Positions 207 to 38,703 of a DNA stretch of 48,240 nucleotides are shown in pieces. Within the stretch, counting starts at the first letter, position 1; each line of letters begins with the position of its first letter. Made by a program: the position numbers and the translations under genes. Location: positions 13,316 through 61,555 of the forward strand of contig PLHD01000029.1 of NCBI GenBank assembly GCA_003138815.1, in the 5' to 3' direction. The notes below the pieces were generated by a model. That model worked only from the letters and a program-made list of their open reading frames with translations. It had not been told where the DNA came from and did no database searches. The DNA is from Acidimicrobiaceae bacterium. Its GTDB lineage: Bacteria; Actinomycetota; Acidimicrobiia; Acidimicrobiales; RAAP-2.

Positions 207-1571
207 ATGCCCTTTATCTCAATCAACCCCGCAACAGGCGAAGTACTCGCCCAGTTCCCCGCCAACAGTCCCGCCGAGGTGGAGGCCGCGCTCGATGCGT
301 CGGCCAACGCCTTTGAGAAGTGGCGCACGACCTCGTTCGACGACCGTGCGATTCTGATGAACCGCGCCGCCGAACTGCTCGAGAACGAAGTGTCGAGCGT
401 GGCCGAGATGCTCACCTCGGAGATGGGCAAGACCCTGATCGCCGCCAAGGGCGAGGTGGCCAAGTGCGCATCGACGATGCGCTACTACGCCGAGCACGCC
501 GAATCGCTGCTCAAAGAGGAGATCATCGCCTCGCCGGCCTCTCGCAGCGGCATCCGCTACGAGCCGCTCGGCGCGGTGCTCGCCGTGATGCCATGGAACT
601 ACGCGTTGTGGCAGGCCGTTCGATTCATTGCGCCGTCGATCATGGCTGGCAACGTCGGGGTGCTCAAGCACGCCCACAACGTCCCGATTACCGCCAACTT
701 CCTCGAGGACCTCTTCCTACGCGCCGGCTTTCCCAAGGGCGTCTTCGCCAACCTCTTCCTCTCGCACGACGCACTGTCGGCAATCATCGCCGACGACCGC
801 ATCGCGGCGGTCACCTTGACCGGTTCGGAAGGCGCCGGGGTGCGAATTGGCCAGCTCGCTGGAGCCAACCTAAAGAAGTGCGTGCTGGAACTCGGCGGTT
901 CCGACGCGTTCATCGTGGCCGGTTCAGCGGACATGGCGCGAACGATCCCGATGGCCGTGACCGGCCGGATCCAGAACAACGGACAGAGCTGCATCGCGGC
1001 GAAGCGCTTCATCGTCGTGAAGGAGCGCGCCGACGAGTTCATCGATGGATTCGTCGCGGCCATGAGCGCCGTGGTCGTCGGCGACCCGATGGACCCCGCC
1101 ACGGTCCTGGGGCCGCTCGTCAACGAAGAGCAGCGCGACCTCATCGACGCCCAGGTCCAGGACTCCGTCGCCAAGGGCGCGAAGCTGCGCACCGGCGGCA
1201 AGAAGATCGAGGGAAAGGGCTTCTTCTACCCGGCCACCGTCCTGACCGACGTTCCCCGGGATTCGCGCGCCGGCTGCGAGGAGCTTTTCGGACCCGTCGC
1301 GATCGTCGAGGTCGTCGAGAACCTCACCGAGGCGATCGAGTTGGCCAACTCCACGCCCTGGGGTCTGGGCGGTTCGATCTGGGCCACGGACCAGGCGGAG
1401 ATCAATCAGGCCATTGGCGGTATCGAGGCGGGAATGGTGTTCGCGAACGCCATCGTCGCCTCCACTCCCGAGCTGCCGTTCGGCGGCATCAAGAAGTCCG
1501 GCTACGGACGCGAACTGTCCGCCCAAGGAATCAGGGAGTTCACCAACGTCAAGACCTTCTACGTCGCCTAA
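207..1571 (+). CDS. gabD: NAD(P)-dependent succinate-semialdehyde dehydrogenase family protein
   Basis: A 454-residue cytoplasmic aldehyde dehydrogenase, the usual length for the short GabD1/Sad group that oxidises succinate semialdehyde to succinate. The nucleophile is Cys262 in GQSCIAAKRF and the general base lies in LELGGSDAF. The substrate-pocket stretch PWNYALWQ and the C-terminal FGGIKKSGYGREL are typical of the group. The start is set by the promoter that ends six bases upstream. No GABA transaminase or transporter gene is adjacent, so the physiological substrate is inferred from family resemblance; a related short-chain aldehyde remains possible. A GNAT gene follows after 55 bp. Confidence 0.85.
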   Translation: MPFISINPATGEVLAQFPANSPAEVEAALDASANAFEKWRTTSFDDRAILMNRAAELLENEVSSVAEMLTSEMGKTLIAAKGEVAKCASTMRYYAEHAESLLKEEIIASPASRSGIRYEPLGAVLAVMPWNYALWQAVRFIAPSIMAGNVGVLKHAHNVPITANFLEDLFLRAGFPKGVFANLFLSHDALSAIIADDRIAAVTLTGSEGAGVRIGQLAGANLKKCVLELGGSDAFIVAGSADMARTIPMAVTGRIQNNGQSCIAAKRFIVVKERADEFIDGFVAAMSAVVVGDPMDPATVLGPLVNEEQRDLIDAQVQDSVAKGAKLRTGGKKIEGKGFFYPATVLTDVPRDSRAGCEELFGPVAIVEVVENLTEAIELANSTPWGLGGSIWATDQAEINQAIGGIEAGMVFANAIVASTPELPFGGIKKSGYGRELSAQGIREFTNVKTFYVA

Positions 1572-30102: not shown

Positions 30103-30522
30103 GTGTCGAACTTGAGCGAGACGTCCTGGAATGCACTGCGTGAGCAGGCCAGACACGCGACGCTCATGTCCTACGCTCCCTACTCGCACGTGAGCGTCGG
30201 AGCCGCGGGCTACACCAGCGACGGACGCTACGTCGAGGGGGCCAACGTCGAAAACGCCAGCTACGGGCTGACGCTGTGCGCCGAGTGCTCGCTCGTCAGC
30301 GACCTCATGCGCCAAGGAGGGGGGCGGCTCGTCGCGGTGTCGATCGTCGCGGGCGACGGCCAGTCGATTGCGCCGTGCGGGCGCTGTCGCCAGCTCCTCT
30401 TCGAACACGGCGGGGCCGAACTGCTGGTCGATGCCGGCGAGAACGCCCCCGCGCGCGCGCTCGGCGAGCTGCTGCCCGACGCGTTCGGACCCGACGACCT
30501 CGATTCGCGCCGCAGCCCGTGA
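30103..30522 (+). CDS. cdd: Cytidine deaminase
   Basis: A 139-residue enzyme converting (deoxy)cytidine to (deoxy)uridine, the standard size for the homotetrameric form. The zinc site is complete: VEGANVENASYGLTLCAE gives the first Cys and the catalytic Glu, and IAPCGRCRQLLFE gives the other two Cys. APYSHVSVGAAG near the N-terminus is also typical. The GTG at 30103 is supported by the -10 box and by family alignment. Its stop overlaps the deoA start by 4 bp (GTGA), so the pair is translationally coupled. Confidence 0.95.
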   Translation: MSNLSETSWNALREQARHATLMSYAPYSHVSVGAAGYTSDGRYVEGANVENASYGLTLCAECSLVSDLMRQGGGRLVAVSIVAGDGQSIAPCGRCRQLLFEHGGAELLVDAGENAPARALGELLPDAFGPDDLDSRRSP

Positions 30523-31799
30523 ACGAGTTCTCCGCGGTCGACGTCATCACCACCAAGCGCGACGGCGGCCATCTCAGCGAGGCCGCGATCTCCTGGGTCC
30601 TCGGCGCCTACGCGAGGGGCGAGGTCGCCGACGAGCAGATGTCGTCGCTGCTCATGGCCGTCTTCTTCAACGGCATGCTCCCGGGCGAGCTGCGCTGCTG
30701 GACTGACCAGATGATCGCGTCGGGCGAGCGCCTCAGCCTAAGCGGCCTGTCGCGGCCCACCGTGGACAAGCACTCCACGGGCGGCGTGGGCGATAAGATC
30801 TCGCTCATCCTGGCCCCGCTGGTGGCGGCCTGCGGCGCGGCGGTGCCGCAGCTCTCGGGCCGGGGCCTCGGCCACACCGGCGGCACTCTCGACAAGCTCG
30901 AGGCGATACCGGGCTGGCGGGCGCTGCTGACCAACGACCAGATCCGCGAGCAGCTCGAGAGCGTCGGAGCCGTGATCTGCGCCGCCGGCCAGGGACTGGC
31001 CCCCATCGACCGCAAGCTCTACGCGCTGCGCGACGTGACCGGCACCGTCGAGTCCATCCCGCTCATCTCGTCGTCGATCATGAGCAAGAAGATCGCCGAG
31101 GGCACCGATGCACTGGTGCTGGACGTCAAGGTCGGCCGGGGGGCGTTCATCAAGACCGTCGAGCGCGCCCGCGAACTGGCGAGCACCATGGTGTCGCTGG
31201 GCACCGACCACGGGGTCGCCACCATCGCCCAGCTCACCTCCATGAACGCGCCGCTCGGGCGCGCTGTGGGCAACGCCCTCGAGGTGACCGAGTCCGTCGA
31301 CGTGCTGAGGGGCGGCGGTCCCGGTGACGTCCGCGAGCTCACCCTGGGCCTCGCGCGGATCATGGTCGAACTCGTGGGGATCGACGTCGACCCCGCCGAG
31401 AGGCTGGACGACGGATCGGCCTTCGACGTCTACCGCCGGATGATCCGGGCTCAAGGGGGCGACCCCGACGTCGTCTTGGGGCTCGCCAGCCAGCGTGAGG
31501 AGGTCCTCGCCCCCCGCGGTGGATTCGTCGCGAGCGTCGACGCGCTGTGCGTCGGGGTCACCGCGTGGCGCCTGGGTGCGGGCCGGGCGCGCCAGGAGGA
31601 CCCGGTCAGCGCGGCCGCGGGTGTGCTCTGCCTCGTGCGAGAGGGCGACCGCGTCGAGGCCGGTCAGCCCCTCTTCGAGCTGCACGCCGACGACGAGGAG
31701 CACATGGCCCGGGGCCGGGCCATGATCGGCTCCGCGGCCACGATCGGCGACGACCGAGGCGCGATCGTGCCGCTGCTGATGGAGAGAATCGAGAAGTAG
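30519..31799 (+). CDS. deoA: Thymidine phosphorylase
   Basis: A 426-residue pyrimidine nucleoside phosphorylase that splits thymidine or deoxyuridine into base and deoxyribose 1-phosphate. The N-terminal region ITTKRDGGHLSEAAISWVLG and FFNGMLPGELRCWTDQMIAS precede the family signature DKHSTGGVGDKISLILAPL. The phosphate-binding SGRGLGHTGGTLDKLEAI and LYALRDVTGTVESIPLIS follow. The C-terminal domain ends with a barrel-sandwich region rich in EGDRVEAGQPLFELH. GTG start overlaps cdd by 4 bp. Its product is handled by the mutase and DeoC encoded on the opposite strand. Confidence 0.95.
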   Translation: MNEFSAVDVITTKRDGGHLSEAAISWVLGAYARGEVADEQMSSLLMAVFFNGMLPGELRCWTDQMIASGERLSLSGLSRPTVDKHSTGGVGDKISLILAPLVAACGAAVPQLSGRGLGHTGGTLDKLEAIPGWRALLTNDQIREQLESVGAVICAAGQGLAPIDRKLYALRDVTGTVESIPLISSSIMSKKIAEGTDALVLDVKVGRGAFIKTVERARELASTMVSLGTDHGVATIAQLTSMNAPLGRAVGNALEVTESVDVLRGGGPGDVRELTLGLARIMVELVGIDVDPAERLDDGSAFDVYRRMIRAQGGDPDVVLGLASQREEVLAPRGGFVASVDALCVGVTAWRLGAGRARQEDPVSAAAGVLCLVREGDRVEAGQPLFELHADDEEHMARGRAMIGSAATIGDDRGAIVPLLMERIEK

Positions 31800-31828: not shown

Positions 31829-32920
31829 ATGAGCGAGACCGCCCTCACCCGCGACCTCATCGAACGCGCTCCGAAGGTCCTCCTGCACGATCACCTCGAC
31901 GGCGGGCTGCGCCCGGCCACGATCCTCGAACTCGCCCGCGACATTGGCTACACGGCTCTCCCCACCAGCGACCCCGACGAGCTGAGGCGGTGGTTCATCG
32001 CCAACTCGCCGGGCAGCGACCTCGTGCGATACCTCGAGGGCTTCGCCCACACGACGGCCGTGATGCAGACCAAGGACCAGCTGGAGAGGGTGGCCGCCGA
32101 GAGCGCGCTCGACCTGGCGCGCGACGGCGTCGCCTACGCCGAGGTCCGCTTCGCGCCCGAGCTGCACACCACCCGGGGGCTCACCCTCGACGAGATCGTC
32201 ACCGCGGTCCTGGACGGCTTCACCCGCGGAGTCGAGCAGGCCCGGGCCGAAGGTCGAACCATCATCGTGCGCGCCATCCTCTCGGCGATGCGCCACGCCC
32301 AACGGAGCCTCGAAATCGCCGCGCTCGCCGTGGACTTCCGCGACCGGGGCGTGTGCGGCTTCGACATCGCGGGACCCGAGGACGGCTTCCCCCCCACCGA
32401 CCACCTGGACGCCTTTCACCTCATCCAGCGCGAGAACTTCCACATGACCATCCACGCCGGCGAGGCCTTCGGGCTGCCCTCGATCTGGGAGGCCGTGCAG
32501 TTCTGCGACGCCGAGCGCATCGGCCACGGCGTGCGGATCATCGACGACGTCGAAGAGGTGGGCAGCAACTGCGAGCTCGGCCGGCTTGCGAGCTTCATCC
32601 GCGACCGGCGCATCCCGCTCGAGGTGTGCCCCACCTCCAATGTCCACACCGGCGCGGTGGCGTCCATCGCGACCCACCCAATCGACCTGCTGGCCAGGCT
32701 GCGCTTCCGCGTGACGCTCAACACGGACAACCGCCTCATGAGCGGCATCACCTTGTCCAGCGAGTTCGAGTCGTGCGCGCAGGCCTTCGGATGGACCCTC
32801 GACGACATGGAGTGGCTGACGCTCAACGCGGCCAAGAGCTCCTTCTACCAGTTCGATCAGCGCCTCACGATGATCAACACCATCATCAAGCCCGGCTACG
32901 CCGCGCTGCGCCAGGCCTAG
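31829..32920 (+). CDS. add: Adenosine deaminase
   Basis: A 363-residue zinc hydrolase converting (deoxy)adenosine to (deoxy)inosine. The metal-binding N-terminal motif is LLHDHLDGGLRP. Later motifs are ITIHAGEAFGLPSIWE (seen as MTIHAGEAF; His and catalytic Glu), ERIGHGVRIIDD, LEVCPTSNVHTGAV and the Asp pair in TLNTDNRLMSG. Length is normal. The start is supported by the -10 box six bases upstream. Inosine produced here is the substrate of the PNP encoded convergently. Its TAG stop overlaps the mutase stop in a shared CTAG. Confidence 0.95.
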   Translation: MSETALTRDLIERAPKVLLHDHLDGGLRPATILELARDIGYTALPTSDPDELRRWFIANSPGSDLVRYLEGFAHTTAVMQTKDQLERVAAESALDLARDGVAYAEVRFAPELHTTRGLTLDEIVTAVLDGFTRGVEQARAEGRTIIVRAILSAMRHAQRSLEIAALAVDFRDRGVCGFDIAGPEDGFPPTDHLDAFHLIQRENFHMTIHAGEAFGLPSIWEAVQFCDAERIGHGVRIIDDVEEVGSNCELGRLASFIRDRRIPLEVCPTSNVHTGAVASIATHPIDLLARLRFRVTLNTDNRLMSGITLSSEFESCAQAFGWTLDDMEWLTLNAAKSSFYQFDQRLTMINTIIKPGYAALRQA

Positions 32921-34575
32921 AGCTTCAAGATAGTCGCGAGGTCGTCGCGCACGGCCTCGAGCTTGGCCCGCGCCGCGCCGCGCCGGTCCTCGAGCGGGCC
33001 GGGGTCGCTGGCGCCGCCGACGATCTCGATATACGCCTTCAGCTTCGGCTCGGTGCCCGAAGGCCGCACGACGACCCGGCTGGTCCCGCCGAGTTCCATG
33101 AGCAGCCCGTCGGTGGGCGCCAACCCGTGCCAGCCCAGGGCCAGGTCCGCCGCCTCGGTGACGTCGAGGCCGCCCAGGACGGTCGGCGGCAACCTTCGCA
33201 GCCGGTCCATCGCCGCGGCGATGGCGGCCAGACCCTCGGCGCCCTCGGCGCGCAGCGACAGCTGGGCGCCGGCGTGCACGCCGTAACGCGATTCGATCTC
33301 GTCGAGGCGGTCGAGCAGCGACTTGCCGTGGCGCTCCAGGTCGTCGGCGAGCGCGCAGAGCGCCAGGGCGGCCGACATGCCGTCCTTGTCGGCCACGAGC
33401 GGGTCGACCGCGTAGCCGAGGGCCTCCTCGTAGCCGAAGCGCAGCACGCCGTCTCGCGCGGCCCGCGATATCCATTTGAAGCCCGTGAGCGTCGTGACGA
33501 AGCGCACGTCGGCCTGCTTGGCCATCTCGGCAAGCATCATCGACGAGACGATGGTCGTGGCCACGACGTCGTCACTCGACGTCGCGCCGCCCAGCAGCGC
33601 CGAGGCGAGCAGCCAGCCGATCTCGTCGCCGCGCAGGGTCCGCCAGCCCTGGGGTCCGCGCACGGCCGCTCCGAGGCGGTCGGCGTCGGGGTCGTTGGCG
33701 ATGACGAGCCGCGACGAGGCCGCGTCGGCGCACGCCATCGCCAGGTCCAGCGCGCCCGGCTCCTCAGGATTCGGGTACGGCAGCGTCGGAAAAGTCCCGT
33801 CGGGCGCGAACTGCTCGCGCACCGCCGTGACCGCCCGGAAACCGGCGGCCGCGAAGAGCTCGGTCATCGGCGCGCCGCCCACCCCGTGCAGCGGGGTGTA
33901 GGTGACTCTGAGGTCGCTGCCACCGTCCACGGCGAAACGTGCGCTGAAGTGGTCGAAGTAGCGCGCCAGGACCTCAGGGTCAACGAAGCCGTGCAGCGCG
34001 CTCGTGCGGCTGGCCAGCACCGGCGGCGACGCGCTGGCGGCGTAGCGCTCGACCGTCTGGTCGTGGGGCGGGAGTATCTGAGCCCCGTCGGCCGCGTAGA
34101 GCTTGTAGCCGTTGTCGAGGGGCGGGTTGTGGCTCGCCGTGATCATGATGCCCGCGCCGGCGTGCAGCGCGCGCACGGCGTAGGCCACGAAAGGCGTCGG
34201 CAAGGGTCCGGGCATCTCGAAGACGCGCAGCCCGGCACCGAGCAGCACCGCGACGGCTTCGTCGTTGAACTCCTCCGAGCCTCGCCGCGCGTCGCGGCCC
34301 ACGACGATACCCCTGGCGGGATCGACACCGATCTCGTCCAGCCACGCGACCACGCCCTGGGTCGCCCGGCGTACGGTGAAACGGTTCATCCCCGCCGGTC
34401 CGGCCATGACCGATCCTCGCAGGCCGGCCGTGCCGAAAGTCAACGGAGCGGCGAAGCGGCGGCCCAGCTCGGCCGCGTCGCCACTCTCGAGCAGGGCGAG
34501 CAACGTCGCGCGGTCATCGAGGTCGGGGTCGCCGGCGATCCAGGCCACCACCCGCTCGACCAGCCCGGGATTCAC
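32917..34575 (-). CDS. Phospho-sugar mutase, PGM2-like; probable phosphopentomutase
   Basis: A 552-residue alpha-D-phosphohexomutase. All four functional loops are visible: phospho-Ser148 in ITASHNPPLDNGYKLY, metal loop DPDADR at 295-300, sugar loop GYEEALGY at 381-388, and phosphate loop RPSGTEPKLKAYIE near 515-530. The EEA sugar loop resembles eukaryotic PGM2, which acts as phosphopentomutase, more than the GEESG-type loop of phosphomannomutase. With PNP, DeoA and DeoC in the same cluster, converting (deoxy)ribose 1-phosphate to 5-phosphate is the likely role (inference). The GTG start overlaps the PNP stop by 4 bp. Confidence 0.88.
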   Translation of the reverse strand: MNPGLVERVVAWIAGDPDLDDRATLLALLESGDAAELGRRFAAPLTFGTAGLRGSVMAGPAGMNRFTVRRATQGVVAWLDEIGVDPARGIVVGRDARRGSEEFNDEAVAVLLGAGLRVFEMPGPLPTPFVAYAVRALHAGAGIMITASHNPPLDNGYKLYAADGAQILPPHDQTVERYAASASPPVLASRTSALHGFVDPEVLARYFDHFSARFAVDGGSDLRVTYTPLHGVGGAPMTELFAAAGFRAVTAVREQFAPDGTFPTLPYPNPEEPGALDLAMACADAASSRLVIANDPDADRLGAAVRGPQGWRTLRGDEIGWLLASALLGGATSSDDVVATTIVSSMMLAEMAKQADVRFVTTLTGFKWISRAARDGVLRFGYEEALGYAVDPLVADKDGMSAALALCALADDLERHGKSLLDRLDEIESRYGVHAGAQLSLRAEGAEGLAAIAAAMDRLRRLPPTVLGGLDVTEAADLALGWHGLAPTDGLLMELGGTSRVVVRPSGTEPKLKAYIEIVGGASDPGPLEDRRGAARAKLEAVRDDLATILKL

Positions 34576-35393
34576 AAGACGGGAACCAGCTGGGCCAGCA
34601 GCGCTCCCAGCGAGGCCGCCGCGTTCTGTCCCGCCTCGAGCACCTCGAGGTGGTTGAGCGGCCCCGCGGAGACGCCCGCCGCGTAGTTCGAGACCAGACT
34701 CAGCCCGAGCACCTCGGCGGCCAGGTGGCGGGCCGCGATCGCCTCGAGCACCGTCGACATGCCCACGAGCGACGCCCCCATCGTCCTCGCCATCACGATC
34801 TCGGCCGGCGTCTCGTAGTGCGGGCCGCGAAATCCCGCGTAGACCCCTTCGGCGAGCTCGGGGGCCGCGTCGTGCACCGCGGCCCGTAGCCGGGCACTGT
34901 AGAGGTCGGTCAGGTCGACGAAGCGAGAACCGAGGCCCTCGGGCGGCGCCGGGCCCTCCATCGGCGACGTCGCGGTCAGGTTGATGTGGTCGCGGATCAC
35001 CACGACCGTGCCCGGAGAGGTCGCCGGGTCGATGCCGCCGCACGCGTTCGTGAGCACGACCTTTGAAGCCCCCGCGGCGATAACCGTGCGCACGGGATGG
35101 ACCACCTCGTCGACGGTGTGCCCCTCGTAGAGGTGCACCCGACCGGTCAGCAGCGCCACCATGACGCCGCCCACGTCAAGCGACAGGATCGTGCCGGTGT
35201 GGCCGGCCACGGTGGGCGTCACGAACCCGCTGAGCGAGCTCGTGGGGACCGCGCTCAGCGGCGCGCCGAGCGCGGCGGCGCCCTCGCGCCACCCCGAGCC
35301 GAGGACGATCGCAATGTCGTAGGTGTCGAAGCCGCTGTATATACGCAGTTCATCGGCCGCGACGCGGGCCGTCTCGTACGCGTTCATGGTCAC
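34572..35393 (-). CDS. punA: Purine-nucleoside phosphorylase
   Basis: A 273-residue trimeric-type PNP splitting inosine or guanosine into base and (deoxy)ribose 1-phosphate. Motifs are IAIVLGSGWREGAAALG, LLTGRVHLYEGHTVDEVVHP, VVLTNACGGIDPATSPGTVV, the phosphate/base site GVYAGFRGPHYETPAEI, and LGLSLVSNYAAGVS with the purine-contacting Asn. GTG at 35393 overlaps the preceding ALDH-like stop as GTGA; an ATG two codons on is the alternative. It sits between the ALDH-like gene and the mutase in one operon. Confidence 0.92.
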   Translation of the reverse strand: MTMNAYETARVAADELRIYSGFDTYDIAIVLGSGWREGAAALGAPLSAVPTSSLSGFVTPTVAGHTGTILSLDVGGVMVALLTGRVHLYEGHTVDEVVHPVRTVIAAGASKVVLTNACGGIDPATSPGTVVVIRDHINLTATSPMEGPAPPEGLGSRFVDLTDLYSARLRAAVHDAAPELAEGVYAGFRGPHYETPAEIVMARTMGASLVGMSTVLEAIAARHLAAEVLGLSLVSNYAAGVSAGPLNHLEVLEAGQNAAASLGALLAQLVPVL

Positions 35394-36250
35394 TGTCCAA
35401 TCGTGTGCCACACGGTGGACGTCTCGACGAAGGCACGCAGTCGTCGAAGCGATGTCGGGTCGTCGTGACGACCACGCGGACGCAGCACCCGCTTAATGGA
35501 GCCGGCCGCGACCTTGGCGAGGGCGTCGGCGGCGTCGCCCTCGACGCCCTCGAGGTCGATGCCGTCGATGTCCTCGTGCGACGCCAGGGTGGGGGTCAGT
35601 TCCTGGGTGAAACCCGTCACGATGTTGAGCACACCCGTCGGGAAATCCGACGTCGTGCTCATCTCACCGACCAGCAGCGCCGGCGTGGGGCGCAGCTGGC
35701 TCGCGAGCACGACCACCGTGTTGCCGACGCACAGCGGGGCCAGCACGCAGTCGACGAATCCCTCGAGCGAGGACTCCTGGGGGGCGACCACGCCCACGAC
35801 GCCGCTGGGCGTGGGCAGCGAGAAGTTGAAGAAGGGGCCGGCAACCGGATTGGCGCCGCCCAGCACCTGGGCGACCTTGTCGGTCCAGCCCGCGTACCAG
35901 ACCATACGGTCGACCGCCCTCGCCACCGTAACCTGGGCGGCTGCGGGCTTCAGCCCTTCGCTCAGCGCCACGTGCTCGGCGAGCTCGGCGCGGCGCGACT
36001 CGGCCATCTCGGCGAGGCGGTAGATGACCTGGCCGCGGTTGTAGGCGGTGGCGCTCCACCAGTTGGCCTGGGCGGCGCGGGCCGCCACGACGGCGGCGCG
36101 GACGTCCTTGCGCGATCCCTGGGCGACGTTGGCGAGGAACGCGCCGGCGGCCGTGGTGACCTCGTAGCTGCGCCCCGACTCCGAGCGCGCCAAGGCCCCG
36201 TCGATGAGGAGCTTGTAGGTCTTTCGGACCTCGACGTGGGAATCAGACAT
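35390..36250 (-). CDS. Catalytically incomplete ALDH-like protein (ALDH16 C-terminal-domain-like)
   Basis: A 286-residue protein with the N-terminal (coenzyme-binding) half of the aldehyde dehydrogenase fold: RKTYKLLIDGALARSESGRS, WYAGWTDKVAQVLGGANPVA and the GVVGVVAPQESSLEGFVDCV strand. It ends in an unrelated-looking tail (KRVLRPRGRHDDPTSLRRLR) without the catalytic Cys domain. This is the form of the second, inactive ALDH module of ALDH16 proteins. It overlaps the full-length ALDH by 8 bp and PNP by 4 bp. Together the two make about 774 residues, the size I recall for bacterial ALDH16. A structural partner role is inferred. Confidence 0.8.
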   Translation of the reverse strand: MSDSHVEVRKTYKLLIDGALARSESGRSYEVTTAAGAFLANVAQGSRKDVRAAVVAARAAQANWWSATAYNRGQVIYRLAEMAESRRAELAEHVALSEGLKPAAAQVTVARAVDRMVWYAGWTDKVAQVLGGANPVAGPFFNFSLPTPSGVVGVVAPQESSLEGFVDCVLAPLCVGNTVVVLASQLRPTPALLVGEMSTTSDFPTGVLNIVTGFTQELTPTLASHEDIDGIDLEGVEGDAADALAKVAAGSIKRVLRPRGRHDDPTSLRRLRAFVETSTVWHTIGQ

Positions 36251-37709
36251 TGAGGTACGCCTCCAGACCGTGGCGACCGCCCTCGCGGCCGAAACCCGAC
36301 TCGCGCACGCCGCCGAAGGGGCTGGTGGGGTCGAAGCGGTTGTAGGTGTTGGCCCAGACGACCCCCGCGCGCAGTCGCTGGGCGACCCAGAGGGTTCGGC
36401 TCCCCTTCTCGCTCCAGACGCCGCACGCCAGGCCGTAGTTCGTGTTGTTGGCCTTCGCGACCGCCTCCTCGGGCGTGCGGAAGGTCAGCACCGAGAGCAC
36501 GGGGCCGAAGATCTCCTCGCGGGCGATGCGGTGGGACTGGGTGACGTCAGCGAACACCGTGGGCGCGAACCAGTAGCCCTTGTCGGGCAGGGCGCACGAG
36601 CTCGTGTAGCGCGTCGCCCCCTCGCTCTCGCCGAATGCCGTCAGCTCCTTGATCCTCTCGAGCTGCGCCGCGGAGTTGATGGCGCCGACGTCGGTGTTCT
36701 TGTCCATCGGGTCGCCCACGCGCAGCTGCTCGACGCGGCGCACGAGGCGGCGCAGCACCTCATCGGCGATGGTCTCCTGGACCAGTAGCCGCGAGCCCGC
36801 GCAGCAGACGTGGCCCTGGTTGAAGAAGATGCCGTCGATGATTCCCTCGATCATCTCGTCCACGGGCGCGTCGTCGAAGACGATGTTGGCGCCGTTGCCG
36901 CCTAGTTCGAGGGTGAGGCGCTTGGTGGTCGTCGCGACCCGCTGCTGGATGAGCCGGCCGACCTCGGTGGACCCGGTGAAGGCGATCTTGTCGACACCGG
37001 GGTGCTCGACCAACGCGGATCCGGTCGAGCCGTCGCCGGTGATGATGTTCACGACGCCCTCGGGCAGTTCGGCCTGCTGGAGTATCTCGGCCAGGATCAG
37101 CGCCGAGAGGGGCGTCGTCTCGGCGGGCTTCAGGACGCAGGTATTGCCCGCCGCCAGCGCCGGAGCGAGCTTCCACGCCGCCATGAGCAGCGGGAAGTTC
37201 CACGGGATGATCTGGCCGCACACGCCGACGGGCCGGGGATCCGCGCCGAAGCCGGCGTGGTCCAGCTTGTCGGCCCAGCCGGCGTAGTAGAAGAAGTGCG
37301 CGGCGGCCAGCGGGATATCGACGTCGCGCGACTCGCGTATGGGCTTGCCGTTGTCCAGGGTCTCGACGACGGCGAGTTCCCGGGAGCGCTCCTGGATGAT
37401 GCGCGCGATGCGAAAGAGGTACTTCGCGCGCCGGGCGCCGGTGGTCTTGGACCACACGGTGTCGTAGGCCTTGCGCGCCGACGCGACGGCCCGGTCGACG
37501 TCCTCGGCACTCGCGTGGGCCACCGTCACCAGCGTCTCCTCGGTCGCCGGGTTCAGGCTGGCGAACTGCTCGTGCTGGGTCGGGTCGGTGAACTGGCCGT
37601 CGATGAAGAGCCCGTAGGCGCCCTTCAACTTCGCGATCTGGGCCGATTCCGGTGCCGGGTCGTAGTCCAACGAGCCCAGCTCGGAGTTGGCGAGATGATG
37701 CTGGGTCAT
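36243..37709 (-). CDS. NAD(P)-dependent aldehyde dehydrogenase (ALDH16 catalytic-domain-like)
   Basis: A 488-residue active aldehyde dehydrogenase. The nucleophile is Cys302 in FNQGHVCCAGSR and the general base Glu268 in LTLELGGNGAN, the same numbers as ALDH2. The cofactor region IIPWNFPLLMAAWKLAPALA and FTGSTEVGRLIQ are intact, and FDPTSPFGGVRESGFGREGG lies near the end. It starts one base after the deoC stop. DeoC releases acetaldehyde, so oxidation of acetaldehyde to acetate is the likely role (inference from context). Paired with the inactive ALDH-like protein encoded directly downstream. Confidence 0.92.
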   Translation of the reverse strand: MTQHHLANSELGSLDYDPAPESAQIAKLKGAYGLFIDGQFTDPTQHEQFASLNPATEETLVTVAHASAEDVDRAVASARKAYDTVWSKTTGARRAKYLFRIARIIQERSRELAVVETLDNGKPIRESRDVDIPLAAAHFFYYAGWADKLDHAGFGADPRPVGVCGQIIPWNFPLLMAAWKLAPALAAGNTCVLKPAETTPLSALILAEILQQAELPEGVVNIITGDGSTGSALVEHPGVDKIAFTGSTEVGRLIQQRVATTTKRLTLELGGNGANIVFDDAPVDEMIEGIIDGIFFNQGHVCCAGSRLLVQETIADEVLRRLVRRVEQLRVGDPMDKNTDVGAINSAAQLERIKELTAFGESEGATRYTSSCALPDKGYWFAPTVFADVTQSHRIAREEIFGPVLSVLTFRTPEEAVAKANNTNYGLACGVWSEKGSRTLWVAQRLRAGVVWANTYNRFDPTSPFGGVRESGFGREGGRHGLEAYLNV

Positions 37710-37710
37710 G

Positions 37711-38703
37711 TCAGTCCCCGCTGAATTCGTCGGGACGAACGTACGCCCCGCGCTGCTGCTTGAGGCGCTGCATCAAGAGGTCATTGAGCAGCGACGAGGC
37801 GCCGAACCGGAAGAGGTCGGGAGTCAGCCACGACGAGCCGGCGGTCTCGTTGACCAGCACCAGGTAGTGGATCGCGTCCTTGGAGTTGCGGATGCCGCCG
37901 GCGACCTTCACGCCGACGAGGTGCCCGGTCGACTCGGCGAAATCCCGTACGGCCTCGAGCATCACGAGCGCCACCGGCGTCGTCGCCGACACCACCACCT
38001 TGCCGGTGGAGGTCTTGATGAAGTCGGCTCCGCCGAGCATGGCGAGCCAGCTGGCGCGCCGGACGTTGTCGTACGTGACCAGTTCGCCGGTCTCCAGGAT
38101 CACCTTGAGTTGCGCCCGGCCGCACACCTCCTTCACGGCGACGATCTCGTCGAAGACCTGCCCGACGCGTCCCGAGAGGAAGGCCCCGCGATCGATCACC
38201 ATGTCGACCTCGTCCGCGCCGGCGTCCAGGGCGTCGGACACGTCGGCCAGCTTGACCCTCAGCGACGCGCGCCCCGACGGGAAGGCGGTCGCCACCGCGG
38301 CGACCTTCACCGAGGAGTCGCCCAGAACCGTTCGGGCCTGGGCCACGAGGTCGGCGTAGACGCACACCGCCGCGACCGACGGCACGCGGGGGTCGCGAGG
38401 ATCGGGCCGCATGGCCTTGGTGCACAGCGACACGATCCGCCCTGGGCTGTCCGCCCCTTCGAGCGCCGTCAGGTCGACCATCGAGATCGCCAGATCGAGC
38501 GCCGCGCGCTTCGTCGACCTCTTGATGGACCGGGTCGCGAGCTTGGCCGCCCGTGCCTCGGCGCCGACCGCGTCGACGCCGCAGAGGCCGGCCAGCAGGG
38601 CGCGAAGCTGCGCCTCTGACTCGACGGCGGGCATGGTGCTCGCATCGGGAATTACCACGCCACGGTCCTGCTCACCAACCAGGCGAAGAGGCGCAGTACT
38701 CAC
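37711..38703 (-). CDS. deoC: Deoxyribose-phosphate aldolase, long form
   Basis: A 330-residue class I aldolase cleaving deoxyribose 5-phosphate to glyceraldehyde 3-phosphate and acetaldehyde. The Schiff-base Lys lies in GGADFIKTSTGKVVV and the proton-relay Lys in LVGVKVAGGIRNSKDA; GADEVDMVIDRGAFLSGRVG is the family strand. It has about 70 extra N-terminal residues compared with the common 220-residue bacterial enzyme, so it resembles the eukaryotic/long form. GTG is used as start; TAGCGT ends seven bases before it and could make it nearly leaderless. It heads the five-gene minus operon deoC-ALDH-ALDH-like-punA-mutase. Confidence 0.93.
   Translation of the reverse strand: MSTAPLRLVGEQDRGVVIPDASTMPAVESEAQLRALLAGLCGVDAVGAEARAAKLATRSIKRSTKRAALDLAISMVDLTALEGADSPGRIVSLCTKAMRPDPRDPRVPSVAAVCVYADLVAQARTVLGDSSVKVAAVATAFPSGRASLRVKLADVSDALDAGADEVDMVIDRGAFLSGRVGQVFDEIVAVKEVCGRAQLKVILETGELVTYDNVRRASWLAMLGGADFIKTSTGKVVVSATTPVALVMLEAVRDFAESTGHLVGVKVAGGIRNSKDAIHYLVLVNETAGSSWLTPDLFRFGASSLLNDLLMQRLKQQRGAYVRPDEFSGD

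Follow-up and report, generated by a model that had tools for sequence, protein, structure and literature searches.

A split, two-gene form of ALDH16 behind deoC in an acidimicrobial nucleoside-breakdown locus

ALDH16 is among the least understood families of aldehyde dehydrogenases (ALDHs). Its closest described representative for the system presented here, LsALDH16 of Loktanella (Protein Data Bank (PDB) entries 6MVR, 6MVS, 6MVT and 6MVU), joins a catalytic and a non-catalytic ALDH-like module in one chain, and two subunits of single-chain ALDH16 are described as mimicking a classical ALDH tetramer (PMC8160307, excerpt; here and below, an excerpt covers part of the cited text). The human protein, ALDH16A1, is described as a pseudoenzyme devoid of catalytic activity, one of whose variants is linked to gout, and the substrate of ALDH16 is entered as unknown in one review (PMC10650815, excerpt). 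Here we analyze a 48,240-nucleotide (nt) stretch of an Acidimicrobiaceae genome from the actinomycetotal order Acidimicrobiales (GenBank assembly GCA_003138815.1, contig PLHD01000029.1, positions 13,316 to 61,555; hereafter the window), in which the same two modules are encoded by adjacent, overlapping genes behind deoC, the gene for deoxyribose-phosphate aldolase. We conclude that this split ALDH16 variant tied to deoC is real, widespread and specific, and we consider it probable that its two products form a two-subunit ALDH16-type enzyme, assembled in trans, which oxidizes the acetaldehyde released by DeoC. Among the titles and abstract openings listed in a survey of the open-licence literature, there was no report of a split ALDH16 or of an ALDH16 beside deoC.

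Sequence and ancestry of the two modules

The upstream gene (N module; 36243..37709, minus strand) encodes a complete ALDH of 488 amino acids (aa), where ELGG and GHVCCAG motifs, the latter beginning at residue 299, place the catalytic residues at exactly Glu268 (codon 36906-36908) and Cys302 (codon 36804-36806), and where the Pfam Aldedh profile (PF00171) matches residues 41-488. The downstream gene (C module; 35390..36250, minus strand) starts with an ATG inside the end of the N gene, in the +1 frame and with an overlap of 8 nt (36243..36250); the Pfam match of its 286-residue product, residues 29-255 against profile positions 9-232 of 461, covers the cofactor-binding N-terminal half only. 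The original prediction, made from the window's letters, had described just such a pair: a complete ALDH with Cys302 and Glu268, overlapped by 8 bp by an ALDH-like protein devoid of the catalytic domain. It had further held that ALDH16 proteins are single chains built of these two modules, in agreement with the 767-aa Loktanella chain, which is the best structural match of both proteins. Among all solved chains, N aligns best to 6MVR, where the domain match to residues 10-475 scores 508 bits, and C to 6MVU/6MVR, whose C domain (501-763) gives 98.6 bits and whose N domain gives 44.

These features extend across the collected homologs. The NQGxVC and ELGG motifs occur in all 153 N rows (146 distinct) and in none of the 160 C rows, and the C module also lacks, by eye in alignments, the KPAE and FTGS cofactor motifs. 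Of the C rows, 140 of 144 split ones and all 16 fused ones end in a (T/N/S)(V/I)W..G motif such as ordinary ALDHs have at their C-termini. Purifying selection acts on both genes: the median dN/dS is 0.15 for each over 59 close, non-independent pairs with sequences in common (out of 141 pairs the first 60 were taken, 59 of them with usable dS). The missing catalytic domain and cofactor motifs could suggest that the C gene is a functionless, decaying remnant of a tandem ALDH duplication, but its retention in 84 of the 396 genomes of a phylum sample, a dN/dS equal to that of N and the conservation of its C-terminal motif make such decay highly implausible.

Phylogenies of the modules place the short protein with the C domains of ALDH16 and not with ordinary ALDHs. 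In a 78-row tree of the cofactor-binding region (14 split loci, 13 of 16 fused loci, without L158, L159 and L169, and 24 of 25 ordinary rows, L182 repeating L171), split and fused C modules are joined with a Shimodaira-Hasegawa-like approximate likelihood ratio test (SH-aLRT) support of 100 and split and fused N modules with 97; the split and fused forms of each module and the ordinary ALDHs, five groups in all, each occupy one side of a branch, the support for the ordinary ones being just 68. A more careful tree, built from 10 split and 9 fused loci and 13 ordinary rows (51 rows in all, 11 ordinary ones, mostly long-branched, having been removed), gives bootstrap/SH-aLRT values of 100/100 for the C modules and 98/99 for the N modules; the 13 ordinary rows do not fall on one side of a branch here, yet they remain outside the C-module clade. 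Since the clade with the fused C modules is found in both trees, the short protein is an ALDH16 C module and not an end-truncated ordinary ALDH. The prediction of ALDH16 modules as separate genes, which had been staked in part on this very phylogeny, is thus supported: the C modules, split and fused, form one clade, the N modules likewise, with ordinary ALDHs outside both. The basal divide in either module is between split and fused forms, each a clade, and the trees therefore fit fission and fusion of the genes alike. It is also important to note that ALDH16 membership is defined by both modules in one polypeptide; as the window encodes them in two open reading frames (ORFs) of different frame, on two polypeptides, we file the pair as a split variant and not as a plain ALDH16 member.

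Compared with ordinary ALDHs, the two modules carry complementary deletions. The oligomerization hairpin of ALDHs resides between a YYAGWADK-like and a GVCGQI-like anchor, and the span between these anchors measures 31-41 residues in ordinary ALDHs (24 rows), 25 in fused N (16 of 16), 27 in split N (125 of 130), 35 in fused C (15 of 15) and 38 in split C modules (138 of 138). The five remaining split N spans are of 25, 29, 29, 31 and 36 residues, the two longer hairpin regions being those of L136 (31) and L127 (36). From the GREGG motif on, the tail of split N mostly comprises 15 residues (80 of 130; median 15) versus 20-43 in the 24 ordinary ALDHs; of the five longest split N tails (29-64 residues), one is masked by N letters and the other four lack the terminal-strand motif by eye. 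The ends of the C modules resemble those of ordinary ALDHs, as in ETKTVWHPMG. Hairpin span, tail and terminal motif together indicate that N has lost assembly parts that C keeps, while C has lost the catalytic domain: as read from the alignments, the oligomerization hairpin of N is shortened and its C-terminal strand usually gone, and C retains both.

Junctions, synteny and distribution

The association with deoC is close to invariant. In the window, deoC (37711..38703, minus strand; NCBIfam TIGR00126 over cut-off) has its stop codon end 1 nt before the N-module ATG, and it is the only deoC over cut-off found in this genome, which is 96% complete. Among 141 unique split C genes, obtained after removal of 10 duplicates, N is a separate same-strand ORF upstream of C in 139, the two exceptions being a locus cut at a contig end (L126) and one with a short flank (L053), in whose longer stretch, L190, N is found 2.1 kb ahead of C. 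The gap between N and C is at most 60 nt in 131 of the 139; another 6 have 61-200 nt, and the last 2 exceed that. With 55 loci having too little flank for the deoC test and 2 no N in the stretch, 84 are testable, and deoC lies directly upstream of the pair in 83 of them and about 0.9 kb upstream in L195. The single-chain ALDH16 genes of Pseudomonadota, drawn from plasmid records only (155 records matched), are preceded by deoC in 16 of 16 full-length loci, several with ribokinase nearby; one more locus, L157, is truncated by the start of its record.

At 34 loci with two distinct ORFs, the C-gene ATG lies 5 nt before the N stop codon in 30 (28 distinct genes, three of the 30 being the window's own); as for the other four, L025 is masked by N letters, L033 has ACG in place of ATG, and L028 and L029, from other families, have 4-nt ATGA/GTGA overlaps. 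The conservation of the 8-nt overlap in the genus could be taken to favor programmed +1 frameshifting at this site, with both modules made as one chain. We regard this as extremely unlikely: the junction varies elsewhere in frame and length, C has its own ATG start in 30 of the 34 loci, overlap with coupled translation accounts for the geometry, and in L188-L190 and L206-L207 the modules are 0.6-2.5 kb apart with other ORFs between them. In L188-L190, which belong to one genus, both modules are kept at distances of 0.6, 1.0 and 2.1 kb; by eye, the insert of L190 consists of a sigma-factor-like gene followed by a membrane-protein-like gene, and L189 has a toxin-antitoxin-like pair encoded on the other strand. 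In L206 and L207 (family f111) the modules are 2.5 and 1.9 kb apart, and the intervening DNA bears an opposite-strand gene that is, again by eye, acetyltransferase-like. Because of these intervening genes N and C cannot be one chain at such loci, and the persistence of both modules when separated argues that neither joining nor translational coupling is needed. Two further observations concern this spacing: L188, L189 and L190 all have a small ORF (MA..RKA.GALATGAVA) just ahead of C, and in G466, from the same genus as G536, the N and C matches are still at the usual spacing.

A single genome of the window's order, G473, carries both modules in one ORF (L208/L222; contig 1, about 1980142-1982898), joined by a repetitive linker of some 60 residues in which Asn, Ser and Ala abound. 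In its congener G510 a stop separates the modules into two ORFs, and G540, the third genome of the family, is also split. In trees of 31 split, 1 re-fused and 9 fused sequences, with the bootstrap of the C tree not settled and the N tree of the quick kind, both G473 modules nest within the split clade beside G510, so that the fusion appears derived and independent of the one in Pseudomonadota; it is a probable natural re-fusion of split genes.

The short gene is present, at no fewer than 240 bits, in 32 of the 37 genomes of the genus (exceptions G012, G015, G020, G025 and G027), and the C gene in 24 of 148 genomes of an order sample; in none of the 84 phylum-sample carriers is it fused. Scores of the split-C profile in the phylum sample are bimodal, true C genes reaching at least 311 bits and everything else at most 150. 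Fused ALDH16 was sought there in the interval of 150-311 bits, where fused C modules score (181-222 bits, from 9 of the 16, the other 7 having been scored as whole chains), and nothing was found; long open frames of at least 750 aa, with room for both modules, exist at 11 of the 84 C places, and all proved split. Three C places of the order sample have a frame of that length, those of G054 and G477 being split and that of G473 fused. Among the best 80 of 589 matches, the closest named relatives are metagenome-assembled genomes labelled Acidimicrobiaceae, and named carriers include Streptomyces, Blastococcus, Lentzea, Knoellia and Geodermatophilus. Scanning of viral contigs found no relative. 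In Fodinicola feengrottensis (L110) the N module is spread over two ORFs, by either a frameshift or an assembly error.

A putative two-subunit enzyme and its deo locus

In light of these results, we propose that N and C are separate subunits that would assemble in trans, probably as (N+C)2. N would bind NAD and carry out catalysis, with Cys302 as the thiol and Glu268 as the base, whereas the non-catalytic C would stand in place of a partner subunit and supply the hairpin and C-terminal strand that complete the assembly surface of N, a role modelled on the one the C domain may play within single-chain ALDH16. DeoC, whose products are acetaldehyde and glyceraldehyde 3-phosphate (PMC6365646, excerpt), would release acetaldehyde from 2-deoxyribose 5-phosphate, and the N+C complex would then oxidize it to acetate with NAD.

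Structure prediction weighs neither for nor against an interface between the two modules. Two AlphaFold2 runs were carried out on a tethered N-C pair from L130, with the stop read as Trp; as a plain alignment put C rows on the N region, row sets with the C rows placed correctly, or without C rows, were used instead. The models have mean predicted local distance difference test (pLDDT) scores of 79.4 and 72.5 and a predicted template modeling score (pTM) of 0.58 in both cases. Bacterial ALDH16 is their top Foldseek match, 6MVS aligning over 793 and 778 columns, nearly the full chain, with root-mean-square deviations (rmsd) of 21.5 and 18.0 Å and template modeling (TM) scores of 0.51-0.56, and VIA-align of the tethered model yields a Z of 38.5 and an rmsd of 20.2. 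Foldseek also aligns about 800 columns of the pair with another long ALDH chain, the 886-aa BdhE of Halomonas (PDB 9LDL), which may represent another ALDH type that has an additional ALDH-like domain.

Without a confident interface in these models, and given that other genes can separate N and C, one may ask whether N alone is an ordinary homo-oligomeric ALDH and C a distinct protein outside the enzyme, such as a regulator, a chaperone or a DeoC scaffold. We find this unlikely, though clearly less so than frameshifting or decay, since the specific kinship of C is with the C domain of single-chain ALDH16, part of the hairpin region present in ordinary ALDHs has been lost from N, and the fused form has probably reappeared within the split clade.

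The substrate allows a different alternative. ALDHs are often broad in specificity, and a two-subunit ALDH16 could instead act on a different aldehyde arising when nucleosides or sugars are broken down, or yield acetyl-CoA and not acetate. A DeoC beside a possibly acetyl-CoA-forming ALDH is indeed described in SPU microcompartment loci (PMC4207490, excerpt). Against this stand the near-invariant adjacency to deoC in two phyla and the retention in N of Glu268, which hydrolytic ALDHs use (PMC8160307, excerpt), and we give such variants a small share of the probability.

Several observations weigh against a two-subunit acetaldehyde dehydrogenase. The tethered models, at a pTM of 0.58, match 6MVR/6MVS per domain and not in arrangement, with a whole-chain rmsd of 18-22 Å to 6MVS/6MVR/6MVU; 312 of the 396 phylum-sample genomes have no C gene over 311 bits; the tail ranges overlap, 21 of 130 split N tails reaching at least the 20 residues of the ordinary minimum; and a run of seven A in the G473 linker could hide an assembly indel. 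Furthermore, we infer the complex, its stoichiometry and its activity from sequence, and acetaldehyde, the most likely substrate, solely from gene neighborhood. The reading of N and C as subunits of one DeoC-linked enzyme nevertheless remains the one we favor.

The surrounding genes identify the locus as a nucleoside-breakdown (deo) locus, with the ALDH pair sitting in the deo operon behind deoC, a setting that the original prediction had overlooked. Five minus-strand genes run head to tail, deoC and the 488-aa and 286-aa modules being followed by a purine-nucleoside phosphorylase (34572..35387; NCBIfam NF006054 over cut-off) and a PGM/PMM-type mutase with domains I-IV (32917..34578; Pfam PF02878/PF02879/PF02880/PF00408), and the first three junctions are, in order, a 1-nt gap, the 8-nt overlap and a 2-nt gap. 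The phosphorylase ATG at 35387 thus follows the C-module stop by 2 nt, the start in the ORF list being an upstream GTG at 35411; the mutase start near 34578 is a deduced one, its ORF as listed starting at 35043. No NCBIfam model scores over its cut-off on the mutase, which likely performs the phosphopentomutase step. On the plus strand lie a thymidine/pyrimidine-nucleoside phosphorylase (30276..31799; NF004490 over cut-off, family match from residue 84 on) and an adenosine deaminase (31829..32920; NF006847 over cut-off). A further, ordinary ALDH gene is found at the start of the window (207-1571, plus strand), with 30% identity to the N module. In Streptomyces, the genes next to SCO4914, a deoC, are presumably the two ALDHs. 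The S. lividans orthologues of SCO4914, SCO4917 (phosphorylase) and SCO4901 (adenosine deaminase) are found in one differential-expression table, with log changes of 3.2 for deoC and of 3.7 and 2.2 for the other two, respectively (PMC6302529, excerpt).

Comparison with known systems

A stable two-gene form beside deoC, a position shared by the fused forms examined, provides ALDH16 with a testable substrate and pathway, and the separate genes allow the modules to be removed, mixed or swapped to probe the role of the non-catalytic one. Where Streptomyces and other actinobacteria have paired ALDH genes behind deoC, it also suggests that these be re-annotated as encoding subunits of a single enzyme. 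On a broader view, to which we assign about even odds, ALDH16 would be two-subunit at its root: a catalytic ALDH handed its oligomerization domain to a dedicated non-catalytic partner, the genes of the two staying separate in Actinomycetota and being fused into one elsewhere. Both bacterial forms would then be acetaldehyde dehydrogenases dedicated to the DeoC step in the breakdown of DNA sugar, and the ALDH16 family, an orphan so far, would thereby gain a physiological role.

Set against the systems described so far, the window pair shares with human ALDH16A1 the family name, by which and not by sequence the two are placed side by side. SPU microcompartment loci likewise couple DeoC to an ALDH that handles acetaldehyde, but they do so in microcompartments and with an ALDH possibly forming acetyl-CoA, and the excerpt at hand describes no two-module ALDH16 (PMC4207490). 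LsALDH16 of Loktanella has the same modules in the same order, N with the catalytic Cys and C ALDH-like and non-catalytic, and differs in that the window encodes as two genes and two proteins what is there a single chain. The single-chain ALDH16 proteins encoded on Pseudomonadota plasmids (Caballeronia, Sinorhizobium, Paracoccus, Agrobacterium and others) have 49-55% identity to the window in N and 31-38% in C, and their genes too lie directly downstream of deoC, whereas their modules are connected through some 25-35 linker residues and, in both module trees, form clades separate from those of the split pair.

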